Shown here piece after piece: positions 29,268 through 36,044 of a stretch of 38,828 bases of DNA. Both the position numbers and the translations under genes were made by a program. Below the pieces are notes generated by a model. The model was given only the letters and a program-made list of their open reading frames with translations. It had not been told where the DNA came from and did no database searches. How positions within the stretch are numbered: the first letter of the stretch is position 1; the number at the start of each line of letters is the position of its first letter. Location: positions 1 to 38,828 of the forward strand of contig JAODGH010000033.1 of NCBI GenBank assembly GCA_025464325.1, in the 5' to 3' direction. The DNA is from Methanosarcinales archaeon. Lineage in GTDB: Archaea; Halobacteriota; Syntropharchaeia; Alkanophagales; Methanospirareceae.

Positions 29268-29723
29268 TTACTGTACTACATCGACCCATAAATGGAGTGA
29301 TCGATAGACCACAACATCATCATCCTGTTTATACAGCAGGAATTCCAGTTTCTGATGTCTGCCCGTTCTATCCGGTCTGAAGCTGAAAGGATGTTCCCAC
29401 GTCTCGTTATTTGATAGTTCGACCGTTCTATCCTCTATCGTGCTATTATCAAACCGTACGACAAGCCGATATAGAACCGTATCATATTCGTGGTTTACGA
29501 TACCTATTATCACTTTGCCCGGCTCACCCTGTTTCAGTACCGTCGGGTAGTCTGAAGCAGTACCGTTGGGTCCAAGGATATAGAACTCTGTGAACCTCTC
29601 GCCCTGTTTCGGCGTCACTATCACGTAGATAGTAACGGAAATAGAAACGATGATAGAAATAATGAGAATGAAGGACAATAGCGAATCTAAACGGTTCTGC
29701 TTCTCTATGCCTCTCAATCTCAC
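29268..29723 (-). CDS. DUF1616-like membrane-anchored protein
   Basis: N-terminal TM then TPKQGERFTEFYILGPNGTASDYPT. Confidence 0.75.
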   Translation of the reverse strand: MRLRGIEKQNRLDSLLSFILIISIIVSISVTIYVIVTPKQGERFTEFYILGPNGTASDYPTVLKQGEPGKVIIGIVNHEYDTVLYRLVVRFDNSTIEDRTVELSNNETWEHPFSFRPDRTGRHQKLEFLLYKQDDDVVVYRSLHLWVDVVQ

Positions 29724-31600: not shown

Positions 31601-32548
31601 TTATTGCCCGATGAGCTCGATACCGAGCCTTGTATCTTCCAGTTCCTCACTCCATCGTCTGAAATCCCACCATAAAACTACGGTAATAGCCAGCAGGATC
31701 AGCAGATAAACAGCAACTATCTTCAGGGTATCGAGCATCAATCTCCGATAAACGGCATCGATCTCCGCCCCTTTTGCACTTATCGCGTCCAGTTCCGGAT
31801 CACTATGCTTCTCGTATATCCGCTTCGCACGTTCGAACGAATCACGTGCCCTCAGTATCTCCATGAATGCTGCACCGAATAATGCGGGCTGTGTGGCATT
31901 ATGGAGGTGGCGTTCCGAATCCTCCATGTAAGCTCTTGCTCGTGCCATATCACGGTCATACACACGCTCATCGTGTCTCGCTTCGAACTCCATCCTTGTG
32001 GCATCGCTGTGCATTCCACCAAGCGCGTATGTGGTTGCACTCAGATACTCGTACTCTATCTTCAATTTGGTCTCCGCCGTATCAGCAGCAATATCCTGAA
32101 AAAAGGACCCCTCTCTTCGGTAGAAACGCTTGAGTGCGAGCTCTAAAAGCAGAGGTATACCGTTACTTTCTGGTATATCGTATGCTCGGAGTTCATATAT
32201 GGACTCGTTGATCATTTCTGCTTTCTTTATAGCTTCACGATGATACGATGGATCATCATTCTTACTCAGAGCGGTCATTGCATCAAAATCTTTTACTATT
32301 GCTATGAACAGGTCGACCCAGTTTCTACAATCCTCCGTCACAGCCGAACCATGCATTCCCTGTATCACCGCCTGCGTTTTCGCTTTTGCCAGTACCAGCT
32401 CCTTGTAATCGCCGAATACAGGGCTGTTCAGTGATATTATATCACGCAGCAAAACCCGTTTCAGTTCATCAGAGCCAGCTACTGGTGATGCACAGGCTAA
32501 TAGAAGCAATATCAATACAAGTACAGCCATGCCACCGCGTATTTTCAT
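31601..32548 (-). CDS. Secreted/membrane-anchored helical protein, unknown
   Basis: Signal peptide MKIRGGMAVLVLILLLLACASPVAG and C-terminal TM LKIVAVYLLILLAITVVLWW. Confidence 0.65.
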   Translation of the reverse strand: MKIRGGMAVLVLILLLLACASPVAGSDELKRVLLRDIISLNSPVFGDYKELVLAKAKTQAVIQGMHGSAVTEDCRNWVDLFIAIVKDFDAMTALSKNDDPSYHREAIKKAEMINESIYELRAYDIPESNGIPLLLELALKRFYRREGSFFQDIAADTAETKLKIEYEYLSATTYALGGMHSDATRMEFEARHDERVYDRDMARARAYMEDSERHLHNATQPALFGAAFMEILRARDSFERAKRIYEKHSDPELDAISAKGAEIDAVYRRLMLDTLKIVAVYLLILLAITVVLWWDFRRWSEELEDTRLGIELIGQ

Positions 32549-32586
32549 CTCTATATTTATGGTATGTGCGATATGATTTTAATGAT

Positions 32587-33480
32587 ATGGCATACCTTCT
32601 GGCAGGAGTAGGAACTGCAGGAAACGCTATACTCAAGTCGGTGCTGAGTTACAAAGAGGTTAAACGGGATAAGCCAGTAGTGCTCAAGCTCGGAGAAGAC
32701 GCGGGAAATAGAATAGACCGCGAATTAACCCGTGCATCTGGCACCGACTTCGGGCTCGTATTCTCTGAACTCAATGATAGTGACGTTTCACATCGCGTAG
32801 CCGGACAGTTACATGAGCACGGTATAAAGCAGCTGTTTATCGGTGTTCTACCAGCACGACGGCGACAGAAGAGCGAGAATATAATATCGGCGTTTTATGC
32901 ACTTGAAAAGCTGAAAGAATATGTTAATACCTTCATACTTGTTGATAATCAGAGGATAGCGCATCTCCCCAACTTCGAGGAATATATTCCGCAATATAAC
33001 CGCTATATAGCATCCTGCATTGTGGATATACTTGCCGGACTGCGAGGTGGCGAATCGATAGAATTTGGAAGGTTGCTGGCTTTACTTTCATTTGATGACG
33101 AACCGGGCTATGTGGCACTGTCTCGATCTTCCGAGCTGACAAAAGATCTGCCCGGCTATATCCTGCCTTTTATTATGCCGAAACCGCTCGACCTCAGGAC
33201 TCTCGTTCGGATATCACTGGAGAAGCTCAGTATCGCGGACGCTCCCGTGAGCAGTGAAAAGTGTGTGACCTTTCTCCGTGTACCTGCATACTATATCGAT
33301 ACGGAGCATCTCGACAAGGACCTGGTAGTGGATTTCATGCATATGTATGCCCGGGAGTGCTATGTGGTGGTCTGTAGCACGGGACGTAATATAGCCGCGA
33401 TAACCAATCTCTTCGCTTACAGGTTCGAACAGTTAAAGCGACTGCGTGAATTGAGGGGGCTTGCTCATGAGGGGCTATAA
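32587..33480 (+). CDS. Divergent FtsZ/tubulin-superfamily-like protein
   Basis: N-terminal LLAGVGTAGNAIL, FtsZ-like ALEKLKEYVNTFILVDNQRIAHLP followed by NRYIASCIVDIL; start at internal Met. Confidence 0.6.
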   Translation: MAYLLAGVGTAGNAILKSVLSYKEVKRDKPVVLKLGEDAGNRIDRELTRASGTDFGLVFSELNDSDVSHRVAGQLHEHGIKQLFIGVLPARRRQKSENIISAFYALEKLKEYVNTFILVDNQRIAHLPNFEEYIPQYNRYIASCIVDILAGLRGGESIEFGRLLALLSFDDEPGYVALSRSSELTKDLPGYILPFIMPKPLDLRTLVRISLEKLSIADAPVSSEKCVTFLRVPAYYIDTEHLDKDLVVDFMHMYARECYVVVCSTGRNIAAITNLFAYRFEQLKRLRELRGLAHEGL

Positions 33481-34741
33481 GTACAACATACTGCTGTCAC
33501 TGGTGTTTCTCTTACTGGTACTGGGCTCCATCTTCGTACTATTCAATACGGGCTCCGATCTCGCAATAACTATTATATTGATCTTCATACCGGTTATGAT
33601 CGGTATATCGTTCCTGATACGATATCTCGTCACGGTACGCAAGAGGAGCATAAGGGAACAGGTGATGGAGCGTGATATACGGGGCATTGCGAACCGATAT
33701 AAGGAGCACATGCGAATATTACAAGATCTCGAGGATAAATACAGGATAAGTACAGAAGAGTTCAGAGCAGACCTGCAGAAGGTGAAGGAGGGTTTGTCCG
33801 AGCTGGGCTGTGAGGTGACCGGGCGATTGCGGATTGACCGTGCACGATTGCGGAAAGTGGTATTTTCAGATGTTGAGTGGTTGAATAAGCTCTTCGATGA
33901 GATAACAGAGCGGCAGGGATTGATATTATACTCACGAGCACGCGCCAGATGTGAGGAGTATTTAAAGTCGCTGGAAGAGCTCAAACTCGCGGGTTATGAA
34001 GCCATAAACGTACAAATAGAGCAGATGGTGGGTAAACTGGAAGATACGAGTGTTATGGACGCCGGCGTACTTGAGCTTGCAATGTACCTTAACGAGGTCT
34101 CTTCGCTTATAGAAGAGGCGCTGAGCGTATGTGTGCGTACAGCAACAGATTTAGAGGTAGTAGCGCGAGAGCGTGCAGGTGCAGATACCGCCAGGGTCCG
34201 GACAGATATAAAGCTCGTGGAACGGAATATCGAGCATGGTAATTACGAGAACGCGATGGAGATACTGAAGGGCGTTATTAAACGATTGAGTAAGGCATTG
34301 ACCGCCGAATTTGAGCGATACAGGGCTAATGCGATTGCACTGGTGAGTATCGTGTTGACCGAATCCGGGAGAGAGGATGAAGAGGCTATCGCTCTTGGGG
34401 CGAGAATAGAAGGGTGCAAGAAACCCTCGCAGATGCTGGAGTTACTTAAGCACGGTGCAGCCCTGAAGAGCCTATCGGTGGTCAGGTTAGAGGATATTTA
34501 TAAGCGGATATTCGAACTGGAGTCAGAGCTAAGGGCAGCGAATCCAGGTACAGACCTGTATCCGGTCGAATACTGGCAGGATTATAAGATGAATGAGATA
34601 GATGAGTTGAAGGCGCTATTGCGAGATGATGAACGTATGGACGAATTCGTACGCCGATACAGGCAACTTGCTTCTGATGCATACTCGAGACTGAAGTACG
34701 ATTCGGAACGGCTGGAGTATATAAAATTGCGAAATGGATGA
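33461..34741 (+). CDS. Membrane-anchored coiled-coil protein, unknown
   Basis: Two N-terminal TM helices followed by ~350 aa of charged helical sequence; overlaps FtsZ-like gene. Confidence 0.75.
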   Translation: MLMRGYKYNILLSLVFLLLVLGSIFVLFNTGSDLAITIILIFIPVMIGISFLIRYLVTVRKRSIREQVMERDIRGIANRYKEHMRILQDLEDKYRISTEEFRADLQKVKEGLSELGCEVTGRLRIDRARLRKVVFSDVEWLNKLFDEITERQGLILYSRARARCEEYLKSLEELKLAGYEAINVQIEQMVGKLEDTSVMDAGVLELAMYLNEVSSLIEEALSVCVRTATDLEVVARERAGADTARVRTDIKLVERNIEHGNYENAMEILKGVIKRLSKALTAEFERYRANAIALVSIVLTESGREDEEAIALGARIEGCKKPSQMLELLKHGAALKSLSVVRLEDIYKRIFELESELRAANPGTDLYPVEYWQDYKMNEIDELKALLRDDERMDEFVRRYRQLASDAYSRLKYDSERLEYIKLRNG

Positions 34742-34790
34742 AAAAATTGATTTTTTATTTTTTAATAACACAAAGAGAAAAGGGATAGCA

Positions 34791-36044
34791 ATGACAGAGA
34801 TACCATATGGTGACTATCAGCTGGAAGTGGCCATAGAAGGAGCGGAGCTGTTAGAATGGGATGTCAGCAATACCGGAGCAGAAAGATCCGGTAGTGATAT
34901 AATAAAGGATGCAATAGAGCATCCCGTGGGCACTAAACGGCTGAATGAGATAATAGCTGCGAGGGATGATGATAGCAAAATAGTTATAGTTGTGGATGAT
35001 CATACGAGGGATACTCCAACGGTGGAGATGCTCGATGCACTGGTCAGGGAGATTGGTGATTGTGATAATCGAATCACGATACTCGTAGCCTGTGGTACTC
35101 ATTCACCACCTTCCGCTGAAGAACTGAATAGAATACTCGGTAAATATGCCCGGCAGTTTGAGGTGGTGGTTCATGATTGTGATGCCCCGGATCTGGTTTA
35201 TGTCGGTACTACAGCCAGAGGTACGCCTGTCTGGCTGAACAGGACTTATGTTGATGCGGATATCCGAATCCTGACGGGGGATATAACGCTTCATTACTAT
35301 GCAGGGTTCGGTGGCGGACGAAAGAGTATACTACCGGGCATATCATCACGCGAGACGATAAAGCAGAACCATGCACTCTTAATCGATGAACGTGCGAGCG
35401 CGGCAAATATAACCGATAATCCTGTACATCAGGACATGACCGATGCTGCGGCATTTGCACCGCCGGATTTCATTATTAATACCATCGCTGATGCTTCGGG
35501 CGCGATAGTCTCGGCGTATGCGGGCGATCTGAACGCGGTATTTGAGAAGGGTACCGGGATTGCGAAGGAGTTATTAATACACGAGACGGATTTGTTCGAT
35601 GCCATAGTGGTGAGCGCAGGTGGTTTCCCCAAGGATCGGAATCTGTATCAGGCGACGAAAGCGATTCAAAACTGTTATAATGCCGTTAAACCCGGTGGCT
35701 GTTTGATACTGGTTGCCGAATGTCGGGAAGGGATAGGGGATGCATTTTTTGAGGAGTGGATGAATAGTTATGAGAGTTACGAAGCAACTGAAGAAGCGAT
35801 CAGAGCGCATTTCGTACTCGGAGGTCATAAAGCGTTTTATATGCGGAAAGTGATGCGGTATCTTCGGCTTTCGATAGTATCTGAACTCGATCCTGATCTG
35901 TTGCGTAACTGGGGGATACACGCGTACACGTCGCTTGAGGCAGCCCTTGAGAGCGAGCTTAATGGTAACTTTAAAATAGGGATAGTGAGAAATGGCTTAG
36001 ATACTTTATTAGTTCCAGACAAATTATTTAAGAAGGAGCAATGA
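34791..36044 (+). CDS. LarA-like nickel-dependent lactate racemase family protein (DUF2088)
   Basis: [57 protein letters not shown]. Confidence 0.88.

Follow-up and report, generated by a model that had tools for sequence, protein, structure and literature searches.

The 38,828-nt stretch of archaeal DNA analysed here (the window) encodes a reduced tubulin homologue, Z, whose lineage has derived from a full-length CetZ-like family by removal of much of the T1–T4 segment, of the GGGTGxG loop and of the acidic pair in T7. Z belongs to a module of membrane-protein genes, together with which it is retained across related genomes. The window genome is that of an ANME-1 archaeon (Methanophagales), one of the methane-oxidising archaea. 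As an anatomical statement, the original prediction of a pseudo-tubulin in a membrane module holds, because the tubulin/FtsZ fold, the conservation of the three genes and the clade-wide loss of both catalytic loops were all found; the loss of GTPase activity and the scaffold role that it added are what we infer from that anatomy.

The Z gene (32587..33480, plus strand) runs from an ATG at 32587 to a stop at 33480 and encodes a CetZ-like pseudo-tubulin of 297 aa. Gene A (31601..32548, minus strand) lies head to head with it. As judged from hydrophobicity, the A protein has a signal peptide, a helical ectodomain, and a C-terminal TM helix placed ahead of a short predicted cytosolic tail, in which the motif WSEELEDTRLGIEL is conserved. 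The 38 nt separating the start codons of A and Z (32549..32586, assigned to neither strand) are AT-rich (TATATTTATGG) and may contain a promoter. Gene B (33467..34741, plus strand) encodes two N-terminal TM helices followed by a cytosolic helical/coiled-coil region of about 365 aa. Its start is likelier to be the ATG at 33467, which follows GAGGGGG, than the TTG at 33461. The resulting 14-nt overlap of Z and B (33467..33480, plus strand) is also seen in relatives, and translational coupling of the two genes is likely. Thus the three open reading frames are present where they had been predicted, except for this start of B; the sequence and its hydrophobicity agree with the predicted orientation, signal peptide and TM helix of A, and B is indeed a two-TM coiled-coil protein overlapping Z. 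Downstream, the last 8 nt of B are shared with the gene for a homologue of LarA-type nickel racemases (34734-36044; best NCBIfam model LarAH6, with a score under the cut-off); in many related loci this place is occupied by the genes D and FtsZl1. Upstream of the module, a short protein (29268-29723), whose match to DUF1616 (PF07760) is limited to the C-terminal half of that domain, adjoins a CcmB-like permease. Three related loci (L045:5389-5736, also L051 and L059) have a gene of about 115 aa resembling a DNA-binding regulator between A and Z.

Searches with the Z sequence alone gave little: Pfam Tubulin matched with E 0.0075, which is below the cut-off, the PDB sequence search returned one weak FtsZ match (E 0.55), and the NCBIfam search found nothing. 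Because the single-sequence search was weak, we relied on the family profile and on structure. The AlphaFold2 model of Z, built from an alignment of 31 sequences, has a pLDDT of 88.3 and a pTM of 0.89. In Foldseek it has 283 PDB matches with E <= 0.001, and the best 50 of the 283 are all CetZ, FtsZ, TubZ or tubulin. The best solved matches are CetZ2 (4b45, E 5.5e-14), CetZ1 and CetZ (E to 2e-13; TM 0.75–0.76 by query length); FtsZ, TubZ and tubulin come next. The extended-family profile gave the same three at the head of the PDB search, led by CetZ1 (4b46, E 1.4e-20), with CetZ2 and CetZ behind (E to 3e-19). The modelled structure of Z therefore has a tubulin/CetZ fold. A tubulin/FtsZ fold was one of the points on which the original prediction had been staked in advance, and the model and Foldseek bear it out; the nearest kin is a CetZ-like family and not FtsZ. 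Z is not itself an FtsZl1, as PF13809 did not match it in the Pfam search. The CetZs of Haloferax volcanii (CetZ1/CetZ2, 4b46/4b45) and Methanosaeta (3zid) are thus the nearest solved fold and the best profile match, but Z differs from them in lacking T4, the T7 acidic pair and the T2–T3 segment, and in its context, a cassette of the membrane proteins A, B and S.

Within the same family, relatives of Z are present in 35 of 51 genomes, with full-length matches at 52–69% identity and intact frames. In a scan of named reference genomes they are almost all from Methanophagales, with distant members in Hydrothermarchaeota, and on this basis the window is assigned to ANME-1. The same Methanophagales-type cassette was found on two contigs (L062 and L068) that bear the titles Candidatus Nitrosotalea and Halobacteria archaeon and are probably mislabelled by them. 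Longer relatives of 387–429 aa, which keep the loops, are present in haloarchaea, with related forms in Hydrothermarchaeota and one in an ANME-1 genome, G024. In a tree that included these together with paralogues and FtsZ, the 13 short sequences all fell into one clade (100/100) that groups with the full-length Hydrothermarchaeal and G024 sequences (97/92). The short clade is nested in the full-length group, which is monophyletic only if the short clade is included, and the tree thus places Z inside the full-length CetZ-like Z1 family. Pairwise dN/dS values of 0.2–0.5 indicate that Z is under purifying selection. Given these values, the intact frames and the presence of A and B on either side of Z in almost all loci whose flanks extend far enough, Z is not a chance open reading frame.

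The losses in Z are confined to one side of the nucleotide pocket, as seen when 29 reduced sequences are aligned with 10 full-length ones. On the retained side, the T1 loop (GVGTAG, residues 7–12; 32605..32622, plus strand) keeps GxGxxG in 29/29 reduced and 10/10 full-length sequences, and the same holds for the guanine-side asparagines of T6 (Asn121; 32947..32949, plus strand) and H7 (Asn138; 32998..33000, plus strand). The stacking ring of H7, four residues before Asn138, is Y/F in 28/29 reduced sequences, the window Z having Ile134. GGGTG, in contrast, is present in all 10 full-length and in none of the 29 reduced sequences, and so are both T7 acids. The distance from T1 to T5 is 79–88 residues in the reduced proteins as against 140–173 in the full-length ones, a shortening of about 60 residues. 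Genomes G056 and G057, which belong to a second family of the class, have an intermediate T4, GLGGEIGGTV. That the T4 glycine loop is reduced or lost had been predicted correctly, but the segment proposed for it, ASGTDFG (residues 50–56), lies before strand S4; by alignment the T4 equivalent is ELNDSDV (residues 61–67; 32767..32787, plus strand), which replaces GGGTGCG. The predicted replacement of the NxDxxD catalytic loop is correct in both substance and position: IEFGR (residues 158–162) aligns with the IDLRD motif of the full-length relatives, and in its remnant EFGR (residues 159–162; 33061..33072, plus strand) the second acidic residue of the dyad has become Arg. With GGGTG and the T7 acids gone and T1, T6 and H7 kept, the phosphate/catalytic side is lost and the guanine side retained. 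GTP hydrolysis by Z has presumably been lost, and the invariant guanine-side residues could still allow a nucleotide to bind.

In many ANME-1 loci whose flanks are long enough, the gene order of the module is S, A and, on the opposite strand, Z, B, D, FtsZl1, C. Z is retained together with A and B and, in most genomes, also with FtsZl1, D, C and S. In the window genome it is split over three contigs, with A, Z and B in the window, D, FtsZl1 and C on a second contig (C1) and S on a third (C11), and all of its genes are kept. Across 58 genomes of the class, Z occurs with A in 36 of 37 genomes and likewise with B in 36 of 37 (Fisher 7e-15), and with FtsZl1 in 33 of 37, while A and B are missing from the genomes without Z; these counts are inflated by shared descent and by the loss of whole contigs carrying linked genes. 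Conservation of the three genes, which had been named as a check, is therefore almost perfect at this scale. The module is accessory, since several ANME-1 genomes of 89–98% completeness (G005, G016, G017 and G031) have none of it.

The ~900-aa gene of the module encodes an FtsZl1 (Tubulin_2/PF13809, E 1e-24 to 2e-24, 87 bits against a cut-off of 27) with an intact GGGTG loop and, according to its sequence and weak matches to coiled-coil families, a coiled coil after the tubulin domain. The window genome also has a second FtsZl1-type protein of 733 aa (L093:5438-7639, contig C8; PF13809 E 1.9e-18, loop SVGGGTGSG) at a locus separate from the module, preceded by a 220-aa signal-peptide/TM protein, and two ordinary FtsZ genes elsewhere. 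C and D appear by eye to be TM proteins with helical parts. The A and B families are each found in ANME-1, Hydrothermarchaeota and haloarchaea. The AlphaFold2 model of B (pLDDT 86.4) has no Foldseek match with E <= 0.001 and so no known fold by that search; an EzrA- or spectrin-like identity was dropped for this reason. Similarity of B to ribosomal protein S20 (Pfam E 0.004, below the cut-off, and sub-threshold in NCBIfam) and of A to orthoreovirus p10 (E 0.017, below the cut-off) was attributed to chance resemblance between helical proteins; NCBIfam returned nothing for A.

The S protein is predicted to be secreted and to have a helical part, followed by a TM helix with a short tail; one of two S members tested shows weak HYDIN-type Ig similarity. 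The last ~290 residues of A and S are homologous (hhalign probability 93.5%, P 2.4e-7) and form a helical-TM-tail domain that ends, directly after the TM helix, in a common predicted cytosolic tail, [WY]xx[DE]x6Gxx. Among 1,996 other open reading frames this pattern has three matches, all of them A homologues, a count that is descriptive as the pattern was devised after inspecting the tails. The profile comparison provides the independent support for the relationship. It is a reasonable guess that A and S share a cytosolic docking partner.

The counterpart clusters of haloarchaea contain up to three tubulin homologues with T4-type loops (Z4, Z1 and Z3) together with B, which is about 700 aa there, A, S and further TM proteins. 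Such clusters are found on plasmid PHS2 of the salt-loving archaeon Halobacterium salinarum R1 (OE_RS12025-OE_RS12075) and on a plasmid of Halobaculum roseum, annotated mainly as hypothetical proteins or FtsZ. The PHS2 cluster (L099, 172619-189846) comprises eleven genes, three of them for GTPase-type tubulin homologues; its members include OE_RS12060 (Z1), OE_RS12045 (B), OE_RS12040 (Z3), OE_RS12030 (A) and OE_RS12025 (S). The 407-aa product of OE_RS12040 has a GGGTG loop, yet its annotation is just that of a hypothetical protein. Full-length Z1 is present in 11 of 116 sampled haloarchaeal genomes. These relatives score 486–555 bits, and the remaining haloarchaeal matches, presumably CetZs, reach at most 94 bits on the same profile; because of this gap we regard the full-length relatives as a family separate from CetZ. 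In the haloarchaeal and Hydrothermarchaeal clusters examined, the neighbours of Z1 are mostly Z3 and Z4 and not FtsZl1, so it is the ANME-1-type module that is characterised by an FtsZl1 partner. In the ANME-1 genome G024, full-length Z1 lies on a different contig from a haloarchaea-like set of A, S, a Z3-type tubulin and large TM proteins, and there is also a fragment of ANME-1-type A with an S (L094, L095 and L096).

Part of this gene set has been noticed before. Makarova and Koonin (2010) proposed FtsZl1 as a component of membrane remodelling, typically partnered by vWA proteins, kinases and GTPases (PMC2875224). The ~900-aa gene links our module to that system, but its partners are A, B and S instead, and Pfam detects no vWA, kinase or GTPase domain protein among S, A, B, D and C. 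Halo.Tub, noted by Santana-Molina et al. (2023) without a function, comprises CetZ-like paralogues of Halobacterota in quasi-tandem copies among unknown coiled-coil genes (PMC9871819). By its description it fits the clusters of full-length Z1, Z3 and Z4, and the full-length Z1 family is probably Halo.Tub; unlike for the Z module, the part of that paper considered here mentions neither a loss of the GTP loops nor members from ANME-1, and it names no membrane partners. The arrangement that the original prediction did not recognise is therefore larger than three genes, by S, D, FtsZl1 and C, and overlaps partly with published FtsZl1 loci and probably with those of Halo.Tub. The open-access literature searched yielded no description of the module or of the reduced ANME-1 clade. 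Tentatively, a tubulin without GTP may serve as a permanent adaptor tying S, A and B to an FtsZl1 polymer, in what would be a multi-gene tubulin system of ANME-1, Hydrothermarchaeota and haloarchaea that is undescribed as such.

Our best explanation of Z itself, to which we give an even chance, is a nucleotide-independent adaptor that would link an FtsZl1 polymer to membrane proteins. Z would not hydrolyse GTP and would act as a structural subunit. It would be coupled to B, which would serve as its membrane anchor by means of the TM hairpin and the cytosolic coiled coil. Z would bridge or cap a polymer of FtsZl1, from which the GTP-driven dynamics would come. A and S, single-pass proteins that differ in their ectodomains and have a TM-proximal cytosolic tail motif in common, would tie this scaffold to the surface layer of the cell, a suggestion based on topology and on the weak Ig-like similarity of S. 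The whole may be a transmembrane linker from cytoskeleton to envelope that organises the envelope or shapes the membrane. We place it apart from division, for which two ordinary FtsZ genes are retained in the genome. Tubulin homologues accompanied by membrane proteins that have cytosolic tails are well known from divisomes; an accessory of division or septation that anchors FtsZ1/FtsZ2 instead of the FtsZl1 system is nevertheless improbable, for division is universal and the module is patchy, being missing from the four ANME-1 genomes named above while Z1 is confined to 11 of 116 haloarchaeal ones.

What Z does with nucleotide separates the adaptor from two further readings. The more serious of these, still rather unlikely, is that T1, T6 and H7 still let Z bind a guanine nucleotide or nucleoside, which it does not hydrolyse, and that Z acts as a cap or switch controlled by this ligand. 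The invariance of the T1 glycines and of the T6 and H7 asparagines and the nearly constant aromatic ring in H7 speak for it. But the absence of the T2/T3 segment and of T4 means that phosphate and Mg contacts should be absent, the ring is Ile in the window, and the kept glycines and asparagines may serve folding or the protofilament interface. There is also a slim chance that Z is an ordinary dynamic filament of the CetZ/FtsZ type, self-polymerising with GTP, whose loops have merely diverged too far to align: its overall fold closely resembles that of CetZ and, the loops aside, Z can be aligned well with full-length relatives. The loss is, however, clean between conserved flanks, and both features are missing from every reduced sequence and present in every sister sequence. 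Moreover, a comparable archaeal FtsZ homologue that has lost the T4 (GGGTGTG) and T7 motifs, Nmar_1262 of Nitrosopumilus maritimus, did not polymerise in yeast (PMC3684127). The likeness has limits: T4 of Nmar_1262 is degenerate (AGKAGSA), whereas that of Z was deleted together with the preceding segment, and Nmar_1262 is not reported with a membrane gene module (PMC3684127), whereas Z is in one. Decay of Z, as a leftover that has simply stayed beside A and B, could explain why it is shorter than its relatives and has no catalytic loops. We reject this, leaving it hardly any credence, on the evidence of selection: dN/dS is 0.2–0.5, stops number 0 in 35 genomes, residues are invariant family-wide and the overlap with B is conserved.

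Polymers of the tubulin superfamily are driven by GTP. The reduced clade and its full-length sisters in a parallel cluster thus form a natural before-and-after pair, which lets one ask what the tubulin fold does without nucleotide. We know of no pure culture of ANME-1 archaea; the PHS2 cluster of Halobacterium salinarum makes this question testable in a laboratory strain.
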